From the NCBI GenBank assembly GCA_013214635.1, contig JABSSC010000047.1:1-35588 (forward strand): a stretch of 35,588 nt of DNA, given 5' to 3'. Source of the DNA: Paracoccaceae bacterium. GTDB lineage: Bacteria; Pseudomonadota; Alphaproteobacteria; Rhodobacterales; Rhodobacteraceae. This document shows, one piece after another, positions 2,900 through 35,588 of the stretch. Each line of letters begins with the position of its first letter. The first letter of the stretch is position 1. The notes under the pieces were generated by a model. The model was given only the letters and a program-made list of their open reading frames with translations, made no database searches and had not been told where the DNA came from. The position numbers were made by a program, and so were the translations under genes.

Positions 2900-3537
2900 C
2901 ACACGCGCTCCGTCGCAAGGCTGAAGGCGAAATAGGCGAAGAGCGAACCGAGCGCCGCTTCAATCCAACGTCGCGCGCGACCGTAGGCCGCTCTGAATGG
3001 GTTGGACGACAGCAAGAGCGCCCATGCACCGTGGCAGCCAAAGGAGATCAACCAAGCACCGGCAATGTAAAGACCGATCACCAACGCACCGCCGCCTTGC
3101 GTGGCTGCAATCGCGTTGATCGCGATCCAGAATACGATGGCTTTGAGGTTGGTCACCTGTAGCGCCATTCCGGCAAGGAACAATCGCCAACGAGACGCGG
3201 CTTTGACCCGGACCGCAGACGGTGGTGGGCTTTCGCTCGCAGCCTTTTTGAAAGCGCCGTAGGCAAGCCAGGCAAGATACAAGGCCCCGACGATGCGGAT
3301 GGCCGTCATGGCCCAAGCTGCTTCGGCCAGAATTATTCCGATCCCGGCCATGGTGCCGATGTTCAGAACAACGCTGCCCGTCGCGATACCGGCGGATGCT
3401 GTCAGCGCCGCAGCCCGTCCCTGCCCCAGCGAAATACCCATGAGCATCGCCACCGCGGGTCCCGGGGATGACGCCGCGACCAGCAAAATTGCAAATGCCG
3501 CGAGAAAGCAGGGAAGATAGGTTGCCAGTTCATTCAT
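2899..3537 (-). CDS. LysE family amino-acid exporter (translocator)
   Basis: A 212-residue membrane protein with about six hydrophobic segments and the LysE/RhtB signature SPGPAVAMLMGISLGQGRAAAL at about residues 25-46; this family exports amino acids and their derivatives. Residues around 125-145 contain the conserved NLKAIVFWI-like stretch (NPKA in most members). It is unusual in sitting between the two permease genes of the BMP-type importer: its ATG (3535-3537) overlaps the TGA of the upstream permease, and its TGA overlaps the start of the downstream permease. It is therefore almost certainly co-translated with the importer. The exported substrate is unknown; a link to the imported compound is inference. 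Confidence 0.9.
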   Translation of the reverse strand: MNELATYLPCFLAAFAILLVAASSPGPAVAMLMGISLGQGRAAALTASAGIATGSVVLNIGTMAGIGIILAEAAWAMTAIRIVGALYLAWLAYGAFKKAASESPPPSAVRVKAASRWRLFLAGMALQVTNLKAIVFWIAINAIAATQGGGALVIGLYIAGAWLISFGCHGAWALLLSSNPFRAAYGRARRWIEAALGSLFAYFAFSLATERV

Positions 3538-4622
3538 GACGATTTTTCCGAACGCATCGCAAGAAACAGACGTTCAAGCGGGATACGCACCATGTTGTCC
3601 AGCGCTCCGGTCAGAAGGATAACCAGTGCCTGGATCACAACGATCAACTCACGCGGAATGTTCGTCCATAGCGAAAGCTCAGCCCCGCCCTGGTACAAAA
3701 AGCCAAAGAGAAGTGCAGCCAGAAACACGCCAAACGGATGGGAGCGGCCCATCAGTGCCACGGCAATTCCGATGAACCCGGCCCCTTCGACGGAGTTCAG
3801 GACAAGACGTTCCGCTTCGCCCATCACATTGTTGATGGCCATCAGACCCGCCAGACCGCCCGAGATCAGCATCGCAATCATGATGATTTTCGTCGGCGAT
3901 ATGCCAGCATAGACCGCCGCAGGCTCAGACTGTCCGAAGGCGCGAATTTCATATCCGAGACGCGTGCGCCAGATCAGCAGCCAGACGAGATAGCAGGCGA
4001 GTATCGCGACAAAGAACGTCACGTTGGCCGGTGCGCCGCGGAAGAGAGGGTTCTCAGCGGTAGAGAACATTTGCTGGAACGTCGGCAGGTGCGCGCCTTC
4101 TGGGAACAATCGGCTGGCCGGATCCATGGAGCCCGCTGGGCGCAAAAACTCGTTCAGGACATAAACAAGCAAGGCTGCGGCAATGAAGTTGAACATGATC
4201 GTCGTGATGACGATATGGCTGCCTCGCTTGGCCTGAAGGTAAGCAGGGATCGCGGCCCAGGCCGCGCCAAAGAACGCGCCGCCGATCATCGCAGCGGGCA
4301 GTGCAATCAACCAATGCGGCCATTCGACAGAAAGGCACACAAGCGCCACGCCAAGCCCGCCCAACATCGCCTGCCCTTCGCCACCGATGTTGAACAGACG
4401 TGCGTGGAATGCCACCGCCACTGCAAGGCCTGTGAACATAAAGTTTGTCGCGTAATAGAGCGTGTAGCCCCACCCGTAAGTCGAAGCGAGTGAGCCCGAG
4501 ACCATGGTGTTCATGGCCGCAATCGGATCTTCACCGATGGCCAATATTACAAGCCCTGACAGCACGAAGGCGATCAGGATACTGATCAACGGTATCAGCA
4601 GCACGTCAGCCCATTTTGGCAT
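3534..4622 (-). CDS. BMP-type (nucleoside-like) ABC transporter permease, first permease
   Basis: A 362-residue permease with an N-terminal hydrophobic anchor (about 8-30) and about ten membrane segments. The stretches FHARLFNIGGEGQAMLGG and QSEPAAVYAGISPTKIIM are typical of the larger permease of BmpA-linked nucleoside/purine importers (NupB/YufP-like, BPD_transp_2 family). The start at 4620-4622 lies 17 bases inside the 3' end of the ATPase gene, and its own stop overlaps the LysE start. It forms the channel together with the permease at 1931-2899. Substrate class is inferred from family resemblance. Confidence 0.9.
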   Translation of the reverse strand: MPKWADVLLIPLISILIAFVLSGLVILAIGEDPIAAMNTMVSGSLASTYGWGYTLYYATNFMFTGLAVAVAFHARLFNIGGEGQAMLGGLGVALVCLSVEWPHWLIALPAAMIGGAFFGAAWAAIPAYLQAKRGSHIVITTIMFNFIAAALLVYVLNEFLRPAGSMDPASRLFPEGAHLPTFQQMFSTAENPLFRGAPANVTFFVAILACYLVWLLIWRTRLGYEIRAFGQSEPAAVYAGISPTKIIMIAMLISGGLAGLMAINNVMGEAERLVLNSVEGAGFIGIAVALMGRSHPFGVFLAALLFGFLYQGGAELSLWTNIPRELIVVIQALVILLTGALDNMVRIPLERLFLAMRSEKSS

Positions 4623-6183
4623 TTTCGCCCCCCGTTTTGGCCGCCGACGCGTCGGATGTTGTCATCCCCGCCATCAGAAGCCCCAGTTCTTTCTCATCGG
4701 TTTCACCCGCTGCGCGCTCGCCCATGATCTGCCCGTCGAACATAACCGCGATGCGGTCGCTGAGCGAAAGGATCTCATCAAGTTCAACAGACACCAACAA
4801 GATCGCCTTGCCCTGATCCCGCAGCTCGACAAGCCGCTGGTGAATGAATTCAATCGCACCGATATCCACGCCCCGTGTTGGCTGACCAACAAGCAGCAGA
4901 TCGGGATTACGCTCAATCTCGCGCGCAAGGACGATCTTTTGCTGGTTTCCACCAGAGAAGTTTTTGGCCTCAAGCCATGGATTGGGCGGTCGAACGTCGA
5001 AACGCTCCATCTTGCCTTCGGTGTCCCCGCGCAACGCGACGTTGTCCATCAGCGCGCGGTTTTTGTTGTATTCGTCGGCATTGTGATAGCCAAAGGCGAC
5101 GTTTTCCCACGCCTTGAATTCCATAATGAGACCAAGGTGCTGCCGGTCTTCAGGCACGTGGCTGATCCCCCGCAGGCGGCGCGACTGCCCATCTGAGGTC
5201 TTGCCAGTGAGGTCGATCTGTTCGCCGCGTATCCGGATGTTGCCGGTTCCAGACGCGATCCCGCCCAGCACTTGCAACAGCTCAGACTGGCCATTGCCCG
5301 CCACGCCGGCAATCCCAAGGATTTCGCCGGCCCGCACGTTGAGCGAGACGTCTTTGACCCGATGTACACCCTTGTCATCGGTCACATTCAGTTTGTCGAT
5401 CTCAAGGATCGAGTCGCCGGGTTGCGCGGGTTTCTTGTCAACGCGCAACAACACTTTCCGGCCGACCATCAATTCGGCCAGTTCCTCGGGGTTGGTTTCC
5501 GAGGTTTTAACGGTCGCCGTCATTTCCCCACGCCGCATCACACTCACCGTGTCGGTGATCGCCATGATCTCGCGCAGTTTGTGGGTGATGAGGATAATGG
5601 TTTTCCCCTCTTCGCGGAGCCGCTCGAGGATACGGAACAACTGATCCGCCTCTGCCGGGGTCAGCACCCCGGTCGGTTCATCGAGGATGAGAATATCGGC
5701 ATGCCGATAAAGCGCCTTGAGGATTTCGACACGCTGCTGCATGCCAACGCCAATTTCTTCGATCAAGGCGTCGGGATCGACGTTAAGCTCGTATTCCTGC
5801 GCGAGTTGCACGAGGGATTTGCGGGCTTTCGCAAGGGACGGTTTGAGGAACGCGCCATCTTCGGCGCCAAGAACGACGTTCTCAAGAACGGTGAAGTTGT
5901 CGACCAGTTTGAAATGCTGGAACACCATCCCGATCCCCGCGGCAATGGCTGCCTGACTGTCAGGGATCTGTGTCTTCTGGCCGTTAATAAAAATCTCGCC
6001 GGCGTCAGCTTTGTAAAAGCCGTAGAGGATCGACATTAGCGTCGATTTCCCTGCGCCGTTCTCACCAATGATGCCGTGGATTGTGCCCGGCATGACACGG
6101 ATCGAAATGTCTTTGTTGGCTTGGACCGGTCCGAAGGCTTTGGAAATGCCTTTGAGTTCAATCGCGGGGGCGTCGCTCACCAC
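4606..6183 (-). CDS. BMP-type ABC transporter ATP-binding protein with two nucleotide-binding domains
   Basis: A 525-residue cytoplasmic ATPase with tandem ABC domains, as in the simple-sugar/nucleoside import ATPases (RbsA/NupA-like). The first domain has Walker A GENGAGKST (about 39-47) and the Walker B region ILDEPTGVLTP. The second has the degenerate Walker A usual in this family (GVAGNGQSE), signature FSGGNQQKIVLARE and a Walker B ending in VGQPTRGVD, where Q replaces the usual D/E-region residue. The start is a GTG at 6181-6183. It lies 77 bases downstream of the binding-protein gene, across a strong hairpin, and overlaps the first permease by 17 bases. Confidence 0.93.
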   Translation of the reverse strand: MVSDAPAIELKGISKAFGPVQANKDISIRVMPGTIHGIIGENGAGKSTLMSILYGFYKADAGEIFINGQKTQIPDSQAAIAAGIGMVFQHFKLVDNFTVLENVVLGAEDGAFLKPSLAKARKSLVQLAQEYELNVDPDALIEEIGVGMQQRVEILKALYRHADILILDEPTGVLTPAEADQLFRILERLREEGKTIILITHKLREIMAITDTVSVMRRGEMTATVKTSETNPEELAELMVGRKVLLRVDKKPAQPGDSILEIDKLNVTDDKGVHRVKDVSLNVRAGEILGIAGVAGNGQSELLQVLGGIASGTGNIRIRGEQIDLTGKTSDGQSRRLRGISHVPEDRQHLGLIMEFKAWENVAFGYHNADEYNKNRALMDNVALRGDTEGKMERFDVRPPNPWLEAKNFSGGNQQKIVLAREIERNPDLLLVGQPTRGVDIGAIEFIHQRLVELRDQGKAILLVSVELDEILSLSDRIAVMFDGQIMGERAAGETDEKELGLLMAGMTTSDASAAKTGGENAKMG

Positions 6184-14674: not shown

Positions 14675-17469
14675 TCGGAAAGGGCCCGCTGTCGGCCTGC
14701 GTCAATGGCTTGGCGCAGCTTGTTCTCAAGCGATGTGCGCCGTGCGTCGGAATGGAATTTCAACCCGAACATGTCCTTGACATAGAAGGTATCCACGACC
14801 TGCTCGCCATAGGTGGCAATGACCGCCGAGGCGACATAGACGTTCGAGTTTGCCATTGTCCGTGCGAGGTCAAACAGCAATCCCGGTCGGTCTCGGGTAT
14901 CGACCTCGATGATCGTGTAAATCTCCGACCCTTCGTTGTCGAACGAGATTGACGTGGGAACGTTGAAGGGACGTTCGCGCTTTTTCAGCTTGTCCCGTCC
15001 AACCAGTTCTTGCTGCGCGACCACCTCGCCTTTGAGCGTCCGTTGGATCATGCGTTCCAGACGCGGTAGCCGATTGGCGGCAAATGGGTGTCCTTCGATA
15101 TCCTGTACCCAGAATACGGCGGTCGCATATCCGTCCTTTGACGTGTACGTCCGTGCATCGACCACATTTGCGCCCACCAGCGCCAGCGCTCCAGTAAGAC
15201 GGGCAAATATTCCGGGATGATCGGCGATCGCAAAAGCCACGCGTGTTGCGTCCCGGTCATCATCGGGGTGCAGGTCAATCCGGACATCTTTGTCGGTGAT
15301 GTCTCTCATCAGCTTGGCAAAGACCACATGCGTCGCCGTGGGCAATCCTTGCCAATAGGGGCCGTAGTGTCGCGCGACTTCTGCCCTAAGTTCTTTGGAT
15401 GGCCAATCAGAGAGCGCATCGCGCAAGGCGCGCTTTGCCTCGTTCTCCCGCGAGTCGCGATTGAGATCCTCAAGTCCGCCAGCCAGCGCATTTGAGGTCT
15501 CGCGATAAAGCCCGCGCAAAAGCTGCGCTTTCCAGTTGTTCCATACACCTGGACCGACACCACGGATGTCGCAGACGGTTAGCACAGTCAGCAGATCGAG
15601 GCGCTTTTGGTTTTTAACGGCCTTGGCAAAATCCCGCACGGTGCGCGGGTCTGAGATATCGCGCTTTTGTGCAATGTCCGACATCAGAAGATGGTACCGG
15701 ACAAGCCATTCGACGGTTTCTGCTTCTTCCTTCTTCAGGCCAAATCTTGGCGCCACCCGCCGAGCGATTTGAGCGCCAAGAACAGAATGATCCTCGGGGC
15801 GCCCTTTGCCGATGTCATGCAGGAACAAGGCGGCGTATAGCACGCGTCGGTTCACGCCGTTTTCCAGAATTCTACTGGCGACGGGCAATTCCTCGACCAA
15901 CTCGCCGCGCTCAATCTGCGCCAGCGTCGAAATGCACTGAATAGTATGCTCATCGACCGTGTAGTGATGGTACATGTTGAACTGCATCATAGCGACGACG
16001 GGGGCAAATTCGGGCACAAAGGCCGACAACACACCGAGTTCGTTCATCCGCCGCAAAGCGCGCTCGGGATTCCCGTGTTTCAGGAGCAGATCCATGAAAA
16101 TTCGGTTGGCTTCGGGGTCTTCTCTGAAGGTATCGTCAATCAGGTCGATATGCGCTGAAATCTCGCGCATGGCGTCCGGGTGAATAAGATATCCGGTGCG
16201 CAATGCTTCTTCGAAGATCCGCAGCATGTTGAGGCGGTCGTCGAAAAAGGTCGATGGATCTTCGATATCCAGCCGGTTGTGAACGATCTGATAGCCCGGT
16301 TTGACCTTACGCCTGCGGCGGAACAAACCCTGCAGCATCGGTGCGCGCTTGGCATGTGTTGCCTCAAGCGCAGTTAGCAGAATGCGCGTCAGTTCCCCCA
16401 CCATTGTGGCGTGACGGAAGTAGTCCTGCATGAAATGCTCGACCGCGCGCCGCCCGTCATGGTCGGTATAGCCAAGCCGGGCCGCTATCTCGACTTGCAT
16501 ATCAAAGGTGAGCTGATCCATCGCGCGATCGGCGAGGATATGCAGATGGCAACGCACGGCGGTCAGAAATTCTTCTGCCTCACGGAACCGGTCATATTCG
16601 TCCTGGCGATACACTCCGATCCCAACAAGATCTGCCGGTTCGCGTACGTCGTTGACGTACTTCGCGATCCAGAACAACGTCTGTAGGTCGCGAAGGCCGC
16701 CTTTACCCTCTTTCACATTTGGCTCGACAACATATCGCTGGCCGCCCTGTTTGAGGTGGCGTTCGGCCCGCTCTTGCAGCTTTGCCTCGACATAGTCGGA
16801 TCCCGTGCCGGTAAAGAGCTCGGCCCAGAGCCGTTGTTCCAGTGTCTCGGCAAGGTCGCTATCGCCGCAAATGTACCGGTTTTCCAACAGGGCCGTCCGG
16901 ATGGTGTAATCCTCCCGCCCGAGCCTCAGACAGTCCTTAACCGTGCGCGATGAATGCCCCACTTTGAGGTGCAGATCCCAAAATATGTAGAGCATCGATT
17001 CAATCGTGCTCTCCGCCCAACCGGTGATTTTGTAGGGCGTCAAAAACAAGAGATCGACGTCGGAGTATGGCGCCATTTCACCGCGCCCATACCCGCCCAC
17101 GGCGAGGACTGACAGCCGCTCGGCGTCTGTGGGCGTGGGGAGGGGGTGCAGGTATGTGGTCGCAACGCGAAAGACTTCGCGAACGATGCAATCGGTCAGG
17201 TAAGCGTACGCCGCCGTTGTGGGCCCCGCCGCGAATGGGTCGGACAAGAATGCGGCTTCAATTGCCTGTCTTCCCGACGCATTTGCGTCTTTCAAGACGG
17301 CAACGGTTGTTGCCCGGATATCGGCCGCCGACTTATCCGACGAGATACCGGTATCCACGGCAGCGCGCACTGCCGTGACATCAAAGATTAAGTTGGGTGC
17401 ACAGATCAGCCGCGGCGCGGTGAGCTGATCAGAACCCTGAGCCGCTGAAGCTTCTTGGGGCAGGGTCAA
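14671..17469 (-). CDS. glnD: Bifunctional [protein-PII] uridylyltransferase/uridylyl-removing enzyme
   Basis: A 932-residue nitrogen sensor that uridylylates PII when glutamine is low and removes UMP when it is high. Visible domains: nucleotidyltransferase with GGYGRGEMAPYSDVDLLFL (about 118-136), the HD hydrolase motif LHDIGKG in the middle, and two C-terminal ACT domains (ADHPGIFARLTGAL; DTRDRPGLLFDLARTMA). The start is a TTG at 17467-17469: the codon immediately upstream in frame is TGA, no ATG exists before the conserved region, and an AGGTGA Shine-Dalgarno precedes it by about six bases. The start lies about 40 bases inside the end of the lpoA-like gene. Confidence 0.95.
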   Translation of the reverse strand: MTLPQEASAAQGSDQLTAPRLICAPNLIFDVTAVRAAVDTGISSDKSAADIRATTVAVLKDANASGRQAIEAAFLSDPFAAGPTTAAYAYLTDCIVREVFRVATTYLHPLPTPTDAERLSVLAVGGYGRGEMAPYSDVDLLFLTPYKITGWAESTIESMLYIFWDLHLKVGHSSRTVKDCLRLGREDYTIRTALLENRYICGDSDLAETLEQRLWAELFTGTGSDYVEAKLQERAERHLKQGGQRYVVEPNVKEGKGGLRDLQTLFWIAKYVNDVREPADLVGIGVYRQDEYDRFREAEEFLTAVRCHLHILADRAMDQLTFDMQVEIAARLGYTDHDGRRAVEHFMQDYFRHATMVGELTRILLTALEATHAKRAPMLQGLFRRRRKVKPGYQIVHNRLDIEDPSTFFDDRLNMLRIFEEALRTGYLIHPDAMREISAHIDLIDDTFREDPEANRIFMDLLLKHGNPERALRRMNELGVLSAFVPEFAPVVAMMQFNMYHHYTVDEHTIQCISTLAQIERGELVEELPVASRILENGVNRRVLYAALFLHDIGKGRPEDHSVLGAQIARRVAPRFGLKKEEAETVEWLVRYHLLMSDIAQKRDISDPRTVRDFAKAVKNQKRLDLLTVLTVCDIRGVGPGVWNNWKAQLLRGLYRETSNALAGGLEDLNRDSRENEAKRALRDALSDWPSKELRAEVARHYGPYWQGLPTATHVVFAKLMRDITDKDVRIDLHPDDDRDATRVAFAIADHPGIFARLTGALALVGANVVDARTYTSKDGYATAVFWVQDIEGHPFAANRLPRLERMIQRTLKGEVVAQQELVGRDKLKKRERPFNVPTSISFDNEGSEIYTIIEVDTRDRPGLLFDLARTMANSNVYVASAVIATYGEQVVDTFYVKDMFGLKFHSDARRTSLENKLRQAIDAGRQRALSE

Positions 17470-18613
17470 TCACATTCACCTGGTTGTTCTGGACTTGCGC
17501 AACGGCAAGCCCGCGTTCGTTGGAACCATCGGGTAGCAGGCGGAACACACCATTCGCCCCCACAAAGCCGCCGCCTCTGGTCAGCGAACCGGTGGTGAGC
17601 GCATTGCTGTCGCCGGTCGCGATCAGCGCCCCGATGGCTGCAATGCCATCATAGGCCAATCCGGCAAGCGGGTGTGGTTGGCTGTCATAGGTTTGCGTGT
17701 AGCGCGACGCGAACTGGTTCGCGAGGCCCGGGTCGGGCAGAGCAAACCACGCGCTTTGCAGGCCCGTCAGGGACAGCGCGCTTGCAGGAATGTCCAGCCG
17801 CTGCAAACCGATCATCTGTGTTGCCGCGGGATCAAGCCCGGCCTCTGGCAAGAGATCCGCGAGGAAGGGAAGTGCACCACTGGTCCCCGAGGTCAAAAAG
17901 ACCGATGTGGCGCCTGAAAGCTGGACTTCGTTGGCGATTGTGGGGACGGCGGAAATAACACCCTCCTGCGACAGCTCAAAGGAACTGTTGCCAGCATAGG
18001 TTGCCCCATTGGTCTGAATGGCTGAAATAATGGCATCACGCCCGATCTCTTCCGACGTGTCCTCGGCGTTCACGATGTAGACGTTGCCGCGCCCCTGACC
18101 CATGGCGTAGCCGACCAGCCGATCCGCAGTGTTTCGAAATGTCGTGCCCAATACGAACACGTTGCCACCCGCAATCGCGGTATTGTTGGAGAAGGACAGA
18201 ACGTTCACGTTGCCGCGCGCGGCTTCAACACCCGCCGCGTTGGCCGCTTCGGCAAAAACCGGCCCAATGATGATTTGAGCGCCTGCATCCAAGGCCTCTC
18301 GCGCAGCTTGCGTGGCCAGCGCCGGGTCGCCGCCAGTGTCGTGAACCGTCAACGCAATTTCGACGCCTTCAAGGTCAGATATTGCAAGACGGGCCGCGTT
18401 CTCGAGGCTTCGAGACAGGAACACGCCGTTCTCGCCGGAGCTTTGCGGCACGAGGAGCGCAACACGCACGGTATCCCGCGTGTTCACGGATGGACCGGTA
18501 TTAATTGCACCGGGTTCACAGGCTGAAAGCGCGGCAAAAAGCAAAAGCGCGGCGCCAACGGTTCTCAGCTTGCGCAGCGACGACAAAAAAACGACCATTG
18601 CGAAGGATCCCAT
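17429..18613 (-). CDS. Penicillin-binding protein activator, LpoA-like lipoprotein
   Basis: A protein of about 394 residues with a lipoprotein signal peptide ending in the lipobox LSAC, so it is probably anchored to a membrane facing the periplasm. The mature part is a type I periplasmic-binding-protein fold (Peripla_BP_6), starting VRVALLVPQSSGENGVF and continuing with GAQIIIGPVFAEAANAAG. This is the domain of LpoA/LppC activators of class A penicillin-binding proteins, and location beside rsmI and yraN matches the conserved yraL-yraM-yraN neighbourhood. ATG 18611-18613 (MGSFAM) or 18596-18598 (MVVFLSS) are both plausible starts. It leads into glnD and murJ. Activator function is inferred from family. 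Confidence 0.85.
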   Translation of the reverse strand: MGSFAMVVFLSSLRKLRTVGAALLLFAALSACEPGAINTGPSVNTRDTVRVALLVPQSSGENGVFLSRSLENAARLAISDLEGVEIALTVHDTGGDPALATQAAREALDAGAQIIIGPVFAEAANAAGVEAARGNVNVLSFSNNTAIAGGNVFVLGTTFRNTADRLVGYAMGQGRGNVYIVNAEDTSEEIGRDAIISAIQTNGATYAGNSSFELSQEGVISAVPTIANEVQLSGATSVFLTSGTSGALPFLADLLPEAGLDPAATQMIGLQRLDIPASALSLTGLQSAWFALPDPGLANQFASRYTQTYDSQPHPLAGLAYDGIAAIGALIATGDSNALTTGSLTRGGGFVGANGVFRLLPDGSNERGLAVAQVQNNQVNVIDPAPRSFSGSGF

Positions 18614-18651
18614 CCGGCCTAAAGGTTTGGCGGGACAGTATTCTGAACGAC

Positions 18652-18670
18652 CGCGCATGTAAATTGCGCG
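18652..18670. repeat. Small dyad in the divergent lpoA-like/rsmI spacer
   Basis: CGCGCA (18652-18657) and TGCGCG (18665-18670) form a perfect 6-base inverted repeat with a 7-base AT-rich loop, directly before the TTGGAGG ribosome binding site of rsmI. It could be a regulator half-site pair in the 67-base divergent promoter region or a small leader hairpin; nothing further supports either. Confidence 0.3.
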
Positions 18671-18680
18671 TTGGAGGCTC

Positions 18681-19541
18681 ATGCCTGATCAAGCTCCCAC
18701 GTCGCTTCCCGCCGGTCTTTATTTGGTCGCGACACCAATTGGAAACGCGCGCGACATAACTCTGCGCGCGTTGGACGTTCTCACTGCAGCTGAGATTTTG
18801 GTAGCCGAAGACACGCGCGTTCTGCGCAAGCTTCTGGCGATACACGGCGTCGCAATCCGTGATCGGAAGGTACAGTCTTACCACGATCACAGCCCAGATC
18901 GAATCCGCAGTATGATACTGAACGCTGTGAAAGATGGTGCCGCAGTCGCCTATACCTCCGACGCGGGAATGCCCTTGATCGCGGACCCTGGCTTTGCGTT
19001 GGTGCGCGACGCTGTTGATATGGGGTTAACCGTGACGTCTGTGCCCGGACCGTCTGCCGCGCTCACGGGTCTTTCGATCTCCGGTCTCGCGACGGATCAG
19101 TTTTTCTTTGCCGGCTTCATTCCATCAGCCAAAGGCGCACGCGCAAAGTTTTTGACTGACTTGGCGAACGTGCCCGCCACGCTGGTTCTCTACGATACAC
19201 CCCGTCGCGTTTTGGAAAGTCTTAACCAAGCTGCGACAATATTGGGGCCGGACCGTCGATTTGCGGTCTGCCGCGAACTGACCAAACGCTTTGAGAGTGT
19301 TTTGCGCGGGCGTCTGGGGGATGCGGCTTCGGTTCTCGCGGACATGCCCGAAAAGGGAGAATGCATCGTGGTGATTGAATATGTCCCGGCTGAAGTAAAC
19401 GACGCGGACGTGGAATCCGCGCTGACGACAGCACTTGATACGATGTCGGTGAAGGACGCCGCGAGCCATGTTGCATCCGCGCTGGGCGTCGCGCGCCGCG
19501 ACGTGTACCAGCGCGCGCTTGAACTAACGCGCGACAAATGA
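18681..19541 (+). CDS. rsmI: 16S rRNA (cytidine1402-2'-O)-methyltransferase RsmI
   Basis: A 286-residue SAM-dependent methyltransferase of the tetrapyrrole-methylase fold that modifies C1402 in the ribosomal P site. The motifs are canonical: LVATPIGNARDITLRAL near the N-terminus, ILVAEDTRVLRKLL, and SDAGMPLIADPGFALV followed by SVPGPSAALTGLSISGL. The start ATG is preceded by TTGGAGG. Its TGA overlaps the yraN ATG (ATGA at 19538-19541), so the two genes are coupled. Confidence 0.96.
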   Translation: MPDQAPTSLPAGLYLVATPIGNARDITLRALDVLTAAEILVAEDTRVLRKLLAIHGVAIRDRKVQSYHDHSPDRIRSMILNAVKDGAAVAYTSDAGMPLIADPGFALVRDAVDMGLTVTSVPGPSAALTGLSISGLATDQFFFAGFIPSAKGARAKFLTDLANVPATLVLYDTPRRVLESLNQAATILGPDRRFAVCRELTKRFESVLRGRLGDAASVLADMPEKGECIVVIEYVPAEVNDADVESALTTALDTMSVKDAASHVASALGVARRDVYQRALELTRDK

Positions 19542-31032: not shown

Positions 31033-31677
31033 TTGCGCATTTGGCTGCTGATCGTCGCCATCGCCCTGTCTGCCTGCACACGGCCGATGACCGAGGCCGA
31101 GGTTGCGCTTGCGACAGACGTTTTTGGAGACGGGCTTGATACCGCGCCAGTTCGCATTGGCAAAGATATCGGACTGGCGCCTCCGCCACGGCGGGCCGAG
31201 GTCAGTGTTGAGGTGCGCCGCCCGGCTGAGGACCCGTGTGTGCGCGTTCCGACGCCACCGCGAAATGCGGCACCTCCAGCCTTTGCCGTTGGCAATTCGA
31301 TCTACTTCTCTGGACAATTCTATTCCGTTGATGGTGGCTTTTTGTGGCCCGATGCCGTGCGCTTGCCGCACACCCTGATTCTCGTGCACGAATTGGTTCA
31401 TGTGTGGCAGTGGCAAAACCGAGATCTGACAAATTACACCCCGTTCAAAGCCCTCTCGGAAGGGTTCTCCGGGGACGCCTATTTCTATGGTGCGGACGAC
31501 GCCCCCGACCTTTTCAGATTTGGGTATGAGCAACAGGCGTCAATCGTCGAGGATTACCTTTGCTACCTGATCCTGGATCCTAGCGACCCAGTACTAGGTG
31601 ACTTGCGCACACTGGTAGAACCGATGATCGATGTGGAGCGACTTGAGGCGAGCATCGATGCCGCACGGCGGCAGTGA
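31033..31677 (+). CDS. Putative lipoprotein with HExxH zinc-metallopeptidase motif
   Basis: A 214-residue protein I cannot assign to a named family. A short signal peptide ends in the lipobox LSAC (Cys15), so it is probably lipidated. The LVHELVHVWQWQ stretch (H119, E120, H123) is a gluzincin-type zinc site resembling the HELTHVWQ of DUF4157-like domains, and GYEQQASIVEDYL (E166, E173) offers a third ligand. The start is a TTG at 31033-31035; no in-frame ATG or GTG fits the signal peptide. It lies 11 bases after the dehydrogenase and 59 bases before the HAD gene. Peptidase activity and substrate are inference. Confidence 0.7.
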   Translation: MRIWLLIVAIALSACTRPMTEAEVALATDVFGDGLDTAPVRIGKDIGLAPPPRRAEVSVEVRRPAEDPCVRVPTPPRNAAPPAFAVGNSIYFSGQFYSVDGGFLWPDAVRLPHTLILVHELVHVWQWQNRDLTNYTPFKALSEGFSGDAYFYGADDAPDLFRFGYEQQASIVEDYLCYLILDPSDPVLGDLRTLVEPMIDVERLEASIDAARRQ

Positions 31678-31736
31678 ATTTTGGTTTGGGCCGCACGCCA
31701 ACCGGGTTAGGCTTGGTCGTATTTTGGAGATTCCCT

Positions 31737-32714
31737 ATGCTTGATCGAGCCTTACTCGCCCTATCGTTGATCCTTGCCGCGAATTATGCAGCCGCCGATC
31801 CGCTCCCGTCTTGGGCTGAGACAGATGCCCGCGCTCGCATCATCGACTTTGTGGACTCAGTAACCAATGCGGGTAGCCCCGATTATGTAACCCCGGCGGA
31901 TCGTGTGGCCGTTTTTGACAATGACGGCACGCTATGGGGCGAGCAGCCGGTGTATTTTCAGCTTATCTTTGCTGGTGATACTGTTCAGAAAATGGTCGAT
32001 ACCGATCCAGATTTTGCGTCAAGCGACGCGCTAAAGGCTGCCGCCGCAGGTGATTATCAGGCGTTGGCCGAGGGCGGCGAGGCGGCCATTATTGAGGTCG
32101 TGACGGCGACGCACTCCGGGTTGAGCGTTGATGATTTTCAGGCCAGCGTTGCCGACTGGATTGCAACCGCGCGCCATCCCACCACCGGCCTGCCTTACAC
32201 CGGCATGACGTATCAGCCTATGGTCGAGCTTTTGTCATATCTACGTGACGAGGATTTCAAGACGTACATCGTCTCTGGTGGGGGTCTCCATTTCATGCGC
32301 GTTTTTGCGGAAGAGGCTTACGGCATCCCACCTGAAAACGTGCTCGGGACGTACACGGAAACCTCGTATGAGGTCGTTGATGGCGTGCCGGTGATTTCAA
32401 AAGAACCGGCGATTGCCTTTGTCGATGACAAGGAAGGCAAGCCGATCAACATTGAGCGGACGCTCGGAAAGCGACCGATCCTTGCAGGCGGTAACTCTGA
32501 TGGCGATTTTGCCATGTTGGAGTGGACAACCGCGGGCGAGGGGGCACGGTTAGGATTGATCGTGCATCACACAGATGCCGAACGCGAAGTGGCCTATGAC
32601 TGTGACAGCCATATTGGAAGACTATGCGATGGTTTAGAGCAAGGGCCTGATCGCGGCTGGCTTATCATCGATATGGCCAATGATTGGGATCGGGTCTTTA
32701 CCGGTGCTCGGTGA
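31737..32714 (+). CDS. Secreted HAD-superfamily phosphatase
   Basis: A 325-residue HAD-fold hydrolase with an N-terminal signal peptide (about 1-20, ending AAADP), so it is probably periplasmic. Motif I is VAVFDNDGTLW (D61, D63), and motif IV is GGNSDGDFAML. The long insert between motifs I and II is an alpha-helical cap. ATG 31737 is preceded by TTGGAGA and gives the signal peptide; the in-frame GTG at 31674 would mask it. The substrate is unknown. The preceding HELVH lipoprotein is also exported, so the two may work in the same compartment. Confidence 0.85.
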   Translation: MLDRALLALSLILAANYAAADPLPSWAETDARARIIDFVDSVTNAGSPDYVTPADRVAVFDNDGTLWGEQPVYFQLIFAGDTVQKMVDTDPDFASSDALKAAAAGDYQALAEGGEAAIIEVVTATHSGLSVDDFQASVADWIATARHPTTGLPYTGMTYQPMVELLSYLRDEDFKTYIVSGGGLHFMRVFAEEAYGIPPENVLGTYTETSYEVVDGVPVISKEPAIAFVDDKEGKPINIERTLGKRPILAGGNSDGDFAMLEWTTAGEGARLGLIVHHTDAEREVAYDCDSHIGRLCDGLEQGPDRGWLIIDMANDWDRVFTGAR

Positions 32715-32799
32715 ACGGGCTGGCATGACTGACGTGCGCGCTCGACCGGCCTTCTTGCACCTCGTTGTGTTGGAGCGGCACAGTCACCACCGGCGCAAG

Positions 32800-32849
32800 C
32801 GGTTCGCGGGTTAGCGAGGGTACGCCACCCCTAACCCCCACGCGAACCG
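32800..32849 (+). promoter_or_regulatory. Structured 5' leader hairpin abutting the ribosome binding site of the 2OG oxygenase gene
   Basis: Three stacked complementary blocks: CGGTTCGCG (32800-32808) with CGCGAACCG (32841-32849), GGTTAG (32809-32814) with CTAACC (32831-32836), and GGGT (32818-32821) with ACCC (32827-32830). A one-sided CCCA bulge (32837-32840) separates the first two. The GGAG ribosome binding site begins at the last paired base (32849), eight bases before the ATG region. The 144-base gap 32715-32858 has no gene. It could be a riboswitch-like or protein-binding translational control element; no known class is confirmed. Confidence 0.55.
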
Positions 32850-32858
32850 GAGACGAAT

Positions 32859-33812
32859 ATGACAGAATTTTCGCAGATCCCTGTGTTGGATCTTGGACCG
32901 CTGATGCGCGGTGAAGACACTCAGGCCTTGGCCCGCGAATTTGCCGCTGGCTACGGCACCGTCGGGTTTGGCTATGTGATCGGCCACGGGATCGATCCCG
33001 CCCTGCGCACCGCCATTTTCGCGGCGTCGCGCCAGTTCCATCAGATGCCTGCTGCCGAAAAAGAGGCGATCGCGCTCGATCGCAGTCACCGTGGCTATAT
33101 TGCAATAAATACCTCAACAGACGTCAATTCCGACTTGGCCGAGGTCACCAAACCCAACCAGTCCGCGTCGTTCATGATGATGCGCGAAGATGAAGCTGCC
33201 GACCCCGGCGTCTATCTGTCCGGCCCCAATCAATGGCCGGAACTCGAAGGATTTCGCGAGGTTTGTGAAGCCTATGTCGCACAGATGACGGTTCTTGGTC
33301 AGAGGTTGATGGCACTTGCGTTAGAAGCATTGGAGGTGACGGACCGATCGATCCTCTCTGCATTTGTTACCCCGACGACTTGGCTGCGCCTACTGCATTA
33401 TCCTCCGCAACCACCGCAATCTCCGGACGATCTATACGGTTCGGCGCCGCACAAGGATTTTGGGTGCCTGACGCTTCTTGCCCAGGATGACGTTGGCGGG
33501 CTTCAAGTTCAGACCCCGCAAGGCCATTGGGTCGATGCGCCGCCGATGCCGGACGCCTTTGTGGTCAATGTGGGGGACATGCTCCATGCGATGTCAAACG
33601 GGCGCCTCTTATCGACGCCACACCGCGTGATAAACACCTCAGGTCGAGAGCGTTACTCAGTCCCTTTTTTCTTCGATCCGCATGTTTCTACCCGGATCGC
33701 ACCCTTACCCGGAACAGGAGATCCGCGGTTTAGGCCCGTAGAGTTCGGGTCATTCCTGCGGTCAGAGCTCGAAGCAGGTTATGACGCGCACAAATCCGAT
33801 AGTGCGGATTAG
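32859..33812 (+). CDS. 2-oxoglutarate/Fe(II)-dependent oxygenase, isopenicillin N synthase family
   Basis: A 317-residue non-heme iron oxygenase with an N-terminal DIOX_N region (IPVLDLGPLMRGED; GFGYVIGHGID) and a C-terminal double-stranded beta-helix. The iron ligands are H198 and D200 (PHKDFGCLTLL) and H255 (TPHRVI), and the 2-oxoglutarate-binding pair is R265/S267 (RYSVPFF). The substrate is unknown: family members hydroxylate or cyclise many small molecules. GGAG precedes the ATG and touches the leader hairpin at 32800-32849. The flavoprotein gene follows 125 bases downstream on the same strand, with operator-like dyads between. Confidence 0.9.
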   Translation: MTEFSQIPVLDLGPLMRGEDTQALAREFAAGYGTVGFGYVIGHGIDPALRTAIFAASRQFHQMPAAEKEAIALDRSHRGYIAINTSTDVNSDLAEVTKPNQSASFMMMREDEAADPGVYLSGPNQWPELEGFREVCEAYVAQMTVLGQRLMALALEALEVTDRSILSAFVTPTTWLRLLHYPPQPPQSPDDLYGSAPHKDFGCLTLLAQDDVGGLQVQTPQGHWVDAPPMPDAFVVNVGDMLHAMSNGRLLSTPHRVINTSGRERYSVPFFFDPHVSTRIAPLPGTGDPRFRPVEFGSFLRSELEAGYDAHKSDSAD

Positions 33813-33886: not shown

Positions 33887-33899
33887 GTGCCTTTGGCAC
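33887..33899. promoter_or_regulatory. Second short dyad upstream of the flavoprotein gene
   Basis: GTGCC-TTT-GGCAC is a perfect inverted repeat with 5-base arms, 38 bases before the flavoprotein ATG. It may be a second regulator site near the expected promoter; it is short enough to occur by chance in this base composition. Confidence 0.25.
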
Positions 33900-33937
33900 A
33901 TTGCACGCGGTCAAGTTACGCGCTGGGAGGGTCCCAA

Positions 33938-35588
33938 ATGAAAACGCATGTCAAAGCACTGGTGGTCGGCGGTGGCGCCGTCGGAACCTCCATCGCCTAT
34001 CACCTCGCGCGCGCGGGTTGGAAGGACGTCATGCTTTTGGAGCGAGATGAACTGACCAGTGGGTCGACTTGGCACGCAGCCGGTCTCCTGCCGTATTTCA
34101 ACATGAGCTATGCCACGACCCACATCCACGACTATTCGATCAAGTACTACAAAACGCTTGAAGAAGAGACGGGCCTGAACCCTGGTTTTTCCGTCGTGGG
34201 CAATCTGCGGATGGCGCAGACACAAGACCGCATGGATGAGTATATGCTTTACGCGTCCACGGCTGAGACTTGTGGCGTTCCCTATGAATGGATGACGCCC
34301 GCGCAGATCAAGGATCGTTGGCCGCTCGTGCGTACCGATGATTTGAAGGGTGCGATTTATCACCCGACAGATGGGTACATTAACCCGGCAGACGTAACGC
34401 AAGCGATGGCCAAGGGCGCGCGGCAACATGGCGCTGTGATAGAACGTAAGTGGCAGGTCGACGGATATCATTGGACAGGCGATCATTGGGACGTCACCGT
34501 CACCAAGATGATCGAAAAGGGGGGGAACCTGATCCCCTCTGATGAGCAGATGGTTATCCACGCCGAACATGTTGTGACGGCCACGGGGAACCATTCACAG
34601 CGCACCGCCCAGCTTTTGGGGATCAAAATTCCGGCTATTCCGGTCGAACACCAATACATCGTCACCGAACCCGACCCAGCATTGGTTGAATACCGCAAGA
34701 CGATGCCAGAACACCCGGTTCTGCGTGATGCAGATGCCAAATGGTATGTGCGCGAAGAGCGTGGGGGATGGATTCTCGGCCCTTACGAATACGGCGCTCC
34801 GGCGCGTTTCGAATACGCGGTCCCAGACAGCTTCCGCGCGGATTTGTTCCCGCTCGACCTGGAGCGCATTGAAGAAGAATACATGTCCATGATCCACCGT
34901 ATTCCGTCCTCGGAAACGGCGGGTCTCAAAGACGACTATAACGGGCCGATTTGCTACACGCCTGACGGCAACCCGCTTCTTGGGCCAGCGCCCGGTTTGC
35001 GAAATATGTGGCTGGCCGAGGGCTTTTCCTTTGGCATCACGGCTGCAGGCGGCACGGGGTATTACCTTGCACAGCTTATGGTCAACGGCGAGGCCGAGAT
35101 CGACATGGCAAGCCTCGACCCCAAACGGTACGGGTCCTGGATGACGACCGAATACGCCATGCGTAAGAACGAGGAATGCTATTCCCACGTCTATATCCTG
35201 CACCATCCCGACGAAGAGCGTGAGGCCTGCCGCCCGCTTAAGACCGCTCCGGCGTATGATCGGCAAAAGGCACTGGGCGCGCAGTTTGGTCAAGTCAACG
35301 GGTGGGAGCGCCCCAACTACTATGGCCCAATCGATGCGCCTGACAGCTTCGACCATGATGCGCGTAGTTTTCGTCGGGGGGGCTGGTGGCAATACGCCCA
35401 CGATGAAGCCAAAGCCATCCGCGAAGGTGTCGGCCTGATCGATGCATCAGCCTTCACCAAGCACGTCGTGCGCGGGCCGGGCGCCACGGCCTTTTTGGAC
35501 TACTTCACTTGCAACAAGCTTCCGCGCGTTGGGCGGATCAATCTGACTTACGCGCTCACCTCCGCCGGAACGACGCGCACTGAATATA
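33938..35588 (+). CDS. Dimethylglycine/sarcosine dehydrogenase-type FAD oxidoreductase with GcvT domain, 3' end outside window
   Basis: The frame is open from ATG 33938 (behind GGGAGG) to the right edge: 550 codons without a stop. The N-terminal DAO-type FAD domain has VVGGGAVGTSIAYHLARAG (about 9-27) and SGSTWHAAGLLP with H46, the histidine that binds FAD covalently in dimethylglycine and sarcosine dehydrogenases. The C-terminal part of the visible sequence (FRRGGWWQYAHDEAKAIREG, GLIDASAFTKHVVRGPGA) starts the folate-binding GcvT-like region. It probably oxidises an N-methylated amine such as dimethylglycine or sarcosine, passing one-carbon units to tetrahydrofolate. The exact substrate is not determined. 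Cytoplasmic; no signal peptide. Confidence 0.92.
   Translation, partial: MKTHVKALVVGGGAVGTSIAYHLARAGWKDVMLLERDELTSGSTWHAAGLLPYFNMSYATTHIHDYSIKYYKTLEEETGLNPGFSVVGNLRMAQTQDRMDEYMLYASTAETCGVPYEWMTPAQIKDRWPLVRTDDLKGAIYHPTDGYINPADVTQAMAKGARQHGAVIERKWQVDGYHWTGDHWDVTVTKMIEKGGNLIPSDEQMVIHAEHVVTATGNHSQRTAQLLGIKIPAIPVEHQYIVTEPDPALVEYRKTMPEHPVLRDADAKWYVREERGGWILGPYEYGAPARFEYAVPDSFRADLFPLDLERIEEEYMSMIHRIPSSETAGLKDDYNGPICYTPDGNPLLGPAPGLRNMWLAEGFSFGITAAGGTGYYLAQLMVNGEAEIDMASLDPKRYGSWMTTEYAMRKNEECYSHVYILHHPDEEREACRPLKTAPAYDRQKALGAQFGQVNGWERPNYYGPIDAPDSFDHDARSFRRGGWWQYAHDEAKAIREGVGLIDASAFTKHVVRGPGATAFLDYFTCNKLPRVGRINLTYALTSAGTTRTEY

Follow-up and report, generated by a model that had tools for sequence, protein, structure and literature searches.

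A conserved leader peptide overlapping an RBS-proximal hairpin upstream of a 2OG-Fe(II) oxygenase gene in Rhodobacterales

In the DNA of a Paracoccaceae bacterium analysed here (35,588 nt, positions 1 to 35,588 of the forward strand of contig JABSSC010000047.1, hereafter the window), the gene of a 2OG-Fe(II) oxygenase is preceded by a short upstream open reading frame (uORF), whose last codons constitute the 5' arm of a hairpin extending to the ribosome-binding site (RBS) of the oxygenase. Comparison with related sequences establishes the conserved uORF, the covarying hairpin, their overlap, and the link of both to the oxygenase. Taking these together, we propose with moderate confidence that the leader acts as a regulatory uORF coupled to the translation of the oxygenase through the hairpin, possibly with sensing by the nascent peptide. 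Regulatory uORFs with an RBS-proximal hairpin are a kind of element already known, to which we rate this uORF family as a new addition. Among the titles and abstract beginnings of the open-access matches listed, the uORF is not named, and a search of the open-access literature with the letters of the peptide returned no paper. The element enlarges the set of Rhodobacterales leader-peptide families by a conserved one, and represents a clear case in which the wobble positions of peptide codons covary, preserving an RNA hairpin under an unchanged peptide sequence. It also provides a handle on the pathway of the oxygenase, since whatever alters the translation of the uORF is likely linked to it, and it illustrates that intergenic leader elements can be overlooked if only noncoding structure is considered.

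The uORF occupies positions 32725-32814 of the plus strand, and consists of 29 codons (MTDVRARPAFLHLVVLERHSHHRRKRFAG) followed by a TAG stop at 32812-32814. Its C-terminus reads ...FLHLVVLERHSHHRRKRFAG, and the final codons plus the UAG stop form the 5' arm of the hairpin. A comparison of the DNA upstream of 52 related oxygenases brought out a coding pattern that recurs and closes with ...LVVLERHSAHRRKRFAG-stop, to which the window uORF belongs. Searched in its own genome with the peptide profile, the window uORF matches with an E value of 1.1e-12. A repeat element was rejected, a single match being present in its own genome. The ATG of the window gives 29 codons, and the other ATG-started uORFs have 23-27.

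Conservation is concentrated in the C-terminal 16 codons (32764-32811, plus strand; consensus VVLERHxxHRRKRFxG), for which per-codon counts were made on 34 rows, the decayed copy L037 being omitted from the 35. Counting back from the stop, R-7, R-6, K-5, R-4, F-3, and G-1 are invariant in 34 of 34 aligned copies, and H-11, H-8, and R-12 are kept in 33 of 34; if L037 is counted, it is the one copy of 35 that departs from RRKRF and the final Gly. This conservation extends right to the stop, and the N-terminus is variable. The differences among the aligned uORFs are largely silent: 3362 of 4835 codon differences are synonymous in frame, vs 398 of 4738 and 393 of 4698 in the shifted frames, and third positions hold 4174 of 6305 base differences, these counts being pairwise over distinct sequences and thus not independent events. 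As judged from these codon patterns, the uORF is under protein-level selection. It is not a readthrough extension of the oxygenase. The spacer from its stop to the oxygenase start measures 44-77 nt in 33 of the 35 loci (L034 and L037 have lost the stop) and holds no fixed frame relation, its length modulo 3 being 2, 0, and 1 in 15, 14, and 4 of the 33. Stop-codon readthrough or a frameshift fusion with the oxygenase was therefore rejected.

The end of this peptide coincides with the hairpin. The predicted fold of 32715-32858 is a bulged hairpin with helices of 9 bp (P1), 6 bp (P2), and 4 bp (P3), all on the plus strand. The 5' arm of P1 (32800-32808), assigned from folding and covariation, covers Arg-Phe-Ala codons, and the 5' arm of P2 (32809-32814) consists of the last Gly codon and the TAG stop (GGTTAG). 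Folding further places the apical hairpin P3 at 32818-32830 (GGGT-ACGCC-ACCC, with 32818-32821 pairing with 32827-32830), the 3' arm of P2 at 32831-32836 (CTAACC, pairing with 32809-32814), a one-sided CCCA bulge at 32837-32840, and the 3' arm of P1, CGCGAACCG, at 32841-32849, pairing with 32800-32808. This last arm includes the first base of the Shine-Dalgarno (SD) sequence, as the GGAG RBS of the oxygenase is found at 32849-32852 (plus strand). The earlier note on this DNA had described the 9+6+4 bp hairpin with its CCCA bulge, which folding reproduced with the arm coordinates verified, and had the stem ending exactly where GGAG begins; the stem does adjoin the RBS, but its last P1 pair occupies G32849, the first G of GGAG, so that stem and RBS overlap by one base. 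The 5' arm and the segment 32789-32803, which had been proposed to compete for that arm, both lie within the conserved uORF. Regarding stability, neither the whole 144-nt leader (z -1.37; 18 of 200 shuffles equally good) nor 32725-32861 (z -0.92) is unusual, and the hairpin by itself (32798-32852) is unusually stable (z -3.47; 1 of 200 shuffles).

Conservation and covariation of the paired blocks in orthologous leaders, which the earlier note had set in advance as a test of its structured leader element beside the RBS, were both found. With a two-helix score designed after inspection of the data, the loci's own arms scored 22.8 vs 17.8 for arms exchanged between the 35 loci (z 7.1), and the same swap on the 27 loci below 82% identity gave z 6.0, none of 20000 permutations reaching the observed value in either set; shuffling synonymous codons on the 27 loci gave z 6.2 (0 of 1000). 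With the 5' segment moved off the arm as a control, z ranged from -0.9 to 3.2, and reversing the arm gave 2.6; since these values still rise to 3.2, composition and kinship explain part of the score. On 30 loci, a generic RNAduplex comparison of own and swapped arms was not significant (p 0.14), and no locus of the 30 outdid its shuffled 3' segments at the 0.05 level. Comparing the longest stems in 30 loci gave modest values (p 0.017 in the swap comparison, 0.006 with synonymous codons, and 0.07 combined). Folding free of any register, from the uORF end to the SD, gave a mean z of -2.13 over the 35 loci, with 20 below -2 and 13 below -3, and in three control regions only 1, 3, and 3 of the 35 fell below -2. 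In 27 of the 35 loci, five or more pairs join the arms in the predicted fold, and arm pairing is not predicted in the other eight (L001, L002, L006, L009, L010, L016, L094, and L098). The apical loop and the bulge vary between loci.

An alignment of 16 hairpins with MAFFT left the 3' arms unaligned and was replaced by eight rows, selected for folding and aligning well. In these eight leaders, 81% of the cells are paired, vs 34-47% when the partner is slid, and the paired cells, the doubly changed cells, and the covariation score each beat all 500 shuffles. Two other counts did not beat the shuffles: pairs changed on both sides (5 vs 3.4; 84 of 500 shuffles) and further pair types (11 vs 10.3; 219 of 500). 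The double changes in P1 and P2 affect three pairs, which involve the wobble bases of an Arg, a Phe, and a Gly codon, and two more are located in P3; in the wider set, the pair at the Arg wobble position occurs as C-G, U-A, G-C, and A-U. A covariance model built from the eight leaders, with the window excluded, recovered the window hairpin with 30.2 bits (E 9.3e-5 over 731 kb), and a sequence-only model from the same alignment gave it 14.5 bits (E 0.026). At E 10, the structured model returned 40 matches: 25 in sense at uORF hairpins, eight of them its own training rows and only nine of the others with E < 0.05, 10 antisense to the same hairpins, and 5 elsewhere. No sense match at E 10 was obtained at 10 of the 35 uORF loci. 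Judged from these alignments, the hairpin is conserved along with the peptide, with the double changes in P1 and P2 falling on synonymous wobble positions.

A homologous uORF precedes the orthologous oxygenase at 35 of 79 loci, counted as matches of the peptide profile A1 with E < 1e-3 within 400 nt upstream of the oxygenase, after loci with identical 600-nt oxygenase stretches had been merged; two further same-contig pairs, L025/L089 and L038/L103, remain among the 79, so that two of the loci are second copies of already counted contigs, all of them without uORF, and L005, which carries a decayed copy (E 0.26), is counted as uORF-less. Some distant loci begin inside the gene and L007 has 302 nt upstream, so that a uORF could escape detection there. 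In a survey of 394 genomes, one per genus of the family, 28 of which carry the oxygenase (E 1e-80 or better), there are 13 strong uORF matches (E 3.1e-8 or better), and all 13, plus a decayed copy in G145 (E 0.005), are found directly upstream of the oxygenase. At E 0.1 the uORF profile has matches in 73 of the 394 genomes, the weak ones ranging from E 6.6e-5 to 0.1; the two best of these, in G079 and G128, look like chance, neither genome having an oxygenase match. With a threshold of E 0.001, the sole match in 385 genomes of the class apart from the window's own genome (in G446), which lies inside a long frame and has no stop after the motif, is likewise chance-like.

The uORF and the oxygenase stay together while their gene neighbourhoods differ between loci. 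Some of the pairs are placed between genes that we take, from their sequences, to be dnaB and an alanine-racemase-like gene, and others lie in unrelated places. In a tree of 78 oxygenases, from which L111 was omitted, the 35 rows with a uORF fall in three subclades and 43 of the 78 have no uORF; the uORF label needs 13 changes on this tree, vs 26 for shuffled labels. Because of this reduced number of changes and the three subclades, the pattern suits an old trait lost several times, as far as can be read from the tree. L119 and L120, from two of the five genomes of the genus of G031, have the oxygenase without a recognisable uORF, which would be a recent loss.

The start of the mRNA was approached through promoter-like sequences. 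A TTGAY box starts 33-40 nt before the ATG in 26 of 33 ATG-start uORFs (19 of 26 representatives), and at control positions its mean frequency is 1.4% and its maximum 6.1%. Since this -35-like box, about 35 nt before the ATG, would set transcription to start at or near the ATG, most of the relatives' uORFs are probably leaderless. This would resemble trpL of Sinorhizobium, an alphaproteobacterial uORF whose RNA begins with the ATG itself, whereas trpL is a Trp attenuator with another peptide and another gene (PMC7298713). In the window, no TTGAY box is present at -40 to -33 from the uORF, and no promoter is predicted in 32500-32900. The uORF starts 10 nt after the end of a gene for a HAD-type hydrolase (31674-32714, plus strand; from the list of open reading frames, with the Pfam domain HAD). 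Because of this proximity, and of the absence of both the box and a predicted promoter, the window uORF may be read from the transcript of the upstream HAD gene. The protein cluster of this hydrolase was not found among the 20 other loci listed.

According to the mechanism we favour, coupling through the hairpin, the short uORF would be translated first, in most relatives probably from a start on or close to the mRNA 5' terminus, which is not evident in the window. It would end in HRRKRFxG-UAG within the 5' half of the hairpin, the 3' half of which reaches the RBS of the oxygenase. The free mRNA would fold into the hairpin and thereby hinder loading of the 30S subunit. A ribosome reaching the end of the uORF, or pausing there, would instead cover the 5' arm and open P1 and P2, allowing the translation of the oxygenase by translational coupling. 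That the uORF is translated, that the effect has this direction, that ribosomes pause, and that any signal modulates the effect, is inferred. In a folding model, a ribosome placed at the uORF stop raises the accessibility of the SD from 0.30 to 0.35 (p 0.003), and one placed early in the uORF gives 0.39; pairing between the SD region and the 5' part of the uORF also occurs in many loci. Three copies have frames that run on towards the oxygenase. Both L034 (5932-6003) and L037 (5931-6004) have lost the conserved stop, and their frames cross the hairpin, the next stop beginning 23 nt before the oxygenase start in the former and overlapping that start as ATGA in the latter; the decayed L005 uORF (Aestuariivita boseongensis, 150 nt upstream of 6001) lacks the conserved stop too, and its next stop begins 22 nt before the oxygenase start. 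Such frames fit what coupling would favour, the cases being few. Against the coupling count the small gain in modelled SD accessibility at the uORF stop, the non-significant RNAduplex comparison, the loci lacking predicted arm pairing or a sense match to the covariance model, the many uORF-less oxygenases and 13 label changes of the tree, and, in the window, the missing promoter signals and the longer uORF.

Similar arrangements have been described in other bacteria. Translation of the uORF mgtQ, upstream of mgtB in Salmonella, frees the RBS from an inhibitory stem-loop, and it shares with the window a short open reading frame overlapped by stem-loops and an RBS held in one of them; however, mgtQ encodes 8 amino acids, lies inside an operon, and owes its effect to ribosome-destabilising Asp/Glu codons, in another organism and before another gene (PMC8092293). 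Ribosomes on toiL, the uORF of topAI in E. coli, similarly alter the RNA structure around the downstream RBS, but toiL, again from another gene and organism, responds to ribosome-stalling antibiotics (PMC12121999).

In a stronger form of this coupling, the nascent peptide would itself be the sensor, its C-terminus making the ribosome stall on the UAG codon once a small molecule, such as a basic amino acid, is sensed, with the stall setting the state of the hairpin. By analogy with known arrest peptides we regard this as possible, if rather doubtful. The conservation up to the stop, behind a variable N-terminus, is what such a sensor would leave, and the last two codons are more uniform than local codon usage. 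Of the 35 uORFs, 33 stop at TAG, compared with 44 of 227 long frames from these loci; GGA is the last codon in 30 of 34 and GGT in 4 of 34, and the commonest Gly codon of the oxygenases is GGC (404 of 810), with GGA accounting for 123 of 810. On the other hand, TAG is common in the oxygenases too, ending 16 of 35, and pairing in P2 could account for part of the GGWTAG constraint. Pairing alone fails to explain the near-fixation of GGA/GGT-TAG, because GGATAG is retained in all 8 loci without predicted arm pairing. SpeFL, which senses ornithine, and TnaC undergo arrest at termination, by inhibition of RF1 in the case of SpeFL; as would hold for the window uORF, these are short leader peptides ending at a regulated stop, but their arrest has been demonstrated, whereas the uORF described here is known from its sequence (PMC8429421). 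The conserved C-terminus and fixed stop thus match the arrest-peptide type, a likeness that is suggestive but not sufficient.

In the most specific version, a leaderless uORF would encode, with HRRKRFxG-UAG, an arrest peptide that senses a metabolite, namely the substrate or the product of a 2OG oxygenase similar to ethylene-forming enzymes, which might be arginine or a related compound; uORF, hairpin, and oxygenase would then be passed on jointly as one self-regulating cassette in Rhodobacterales. We hold this to be unlikely. The nearest solved chain to the oxygenase is 9ovh_A (200 bits, E 5e-58), named 2-oxoglutarate-dependent ethylene/succinate-forming enzyme. Further chains listed under this name reach at most 78 bits and rank after a thymine dioxygenase (120 bits), so that a substrate read from the name of 9ovh_A would be tentative.

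Two further explanations are rather improbable. According to the first, the peptide would be a functional small protein, with the oxygenase as its target or with an action in trans, and the hairpin would be secondary. The strong selection at the protein level and the linkage to the oxygenase would agree with this role, and a trans-acting leader peptide has been reported in Sinorhizobium (PMC7298713); a variable N-terminus and a hairpin covarying over the C-terminal codons suit a role in cis better, and the 43 uORF-less oxygenases of the tree manage without the peptide. According to the second, control would be transcriptional, with translation of the uORF, or arrest on it, governing Rho-dependent termination, an outcome of uORF control in CruR (PMC9426467) and toiL (PMC12121999). 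In the window, the position of the hairpin beside the SD favours control of translation instead, and no intrinsic-terminator-like site is predicted in 32500-32900.

This lack of a terminator-like site in the same interval also speaks against an amino-acid attenuator, in which scarcity of charged tRNA would slow ribosomes at Arg or His codons and open the hairpin, and which we consider decidedly improbable. The density of conserved Arg (-12, -7, -6, and -4) and His (-11 and -8) codons would suit such a device. The Rhodobacterales do have one, the uORFC-8-2 motif upstream of cysS, which resembles the window in being a uORF embedded in a structured leader but differs in being a Cys-codon attenuator with an intrinsic terminator, before another gene and with another peptide (PMC8632094). 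In the uORF family described here, however, Leu, Lys, Phe, and the final Gly are conserved too, which counting codons would not need, and several Arg codons are in use at each Arg position.

A metabolite-binding riboswitch, of the NMT1 (xanthine) class or another, is very improbable. In its favour stands a compact bulged hairpin adjoining the RBS of an oxygenase, the earlier note having named NMT1 as one design of this architecture, and NMT1 RNAs do have a bulged hairpin, control by RBS sequestration, and an association with dioxygenase genes (PMC7373994); the window leader differs from them in having no Rfam match and a coding 5' arm. At the gathering thresholds, no Rfam model matches anywhere in the window. 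At E 10, the only match in 32650-32900 is a chance-level snoRNA on the other strand, and no credible match was returned at E 5 on the leader of one relative or at gathering on those of ten relatives. The Rfam models include one for NMT1. Moreover, the 5' half of the hairpin is the end of a peptide selected as protein, with free wobble positions, and neither the apical loop nor the bulge is constant between loci. The proposal of a small-molecule riboswitch was thus abandoned, and a leader-peptide element fits the sequences better, because of the absence of an Rfam match, the coding 5' half, and the double changes at synonymous wobble positions. Finally, a chance hairpin in GC-rich DNA is scarcely credible, since the marginal stability of the whole leader relative to shuffles and the non-significant RNAduplex test are contradicted by its conserved position and architecture, its covariation, and its match to the covariance model.

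The oxygenase that this candidate regulatory uORF would control comprises 317 aa (32859-33812, plus strand), and the identification of the gene as a 2OG-Fe(II) oxygenase, previously made from its letters, is supported by the Pfam domains DIOX_N and 2OG-FeII_Oxy. Downstream of it, a gene cut by the window end (33887-35587) encodes DAO, FAO_M, and GCV_T domains, a combination that we take to resemble sarcosine/dimethylglycine dehydrogenases. Elsewhere in the window, the regions 3534-6183 and 17429-18682 (minus strand) encode parts of ABC transporters, namely a BPD_transp_2 permease with an ABC ATPase, and, apart from these, a Peripla_BP_6 binding protein.
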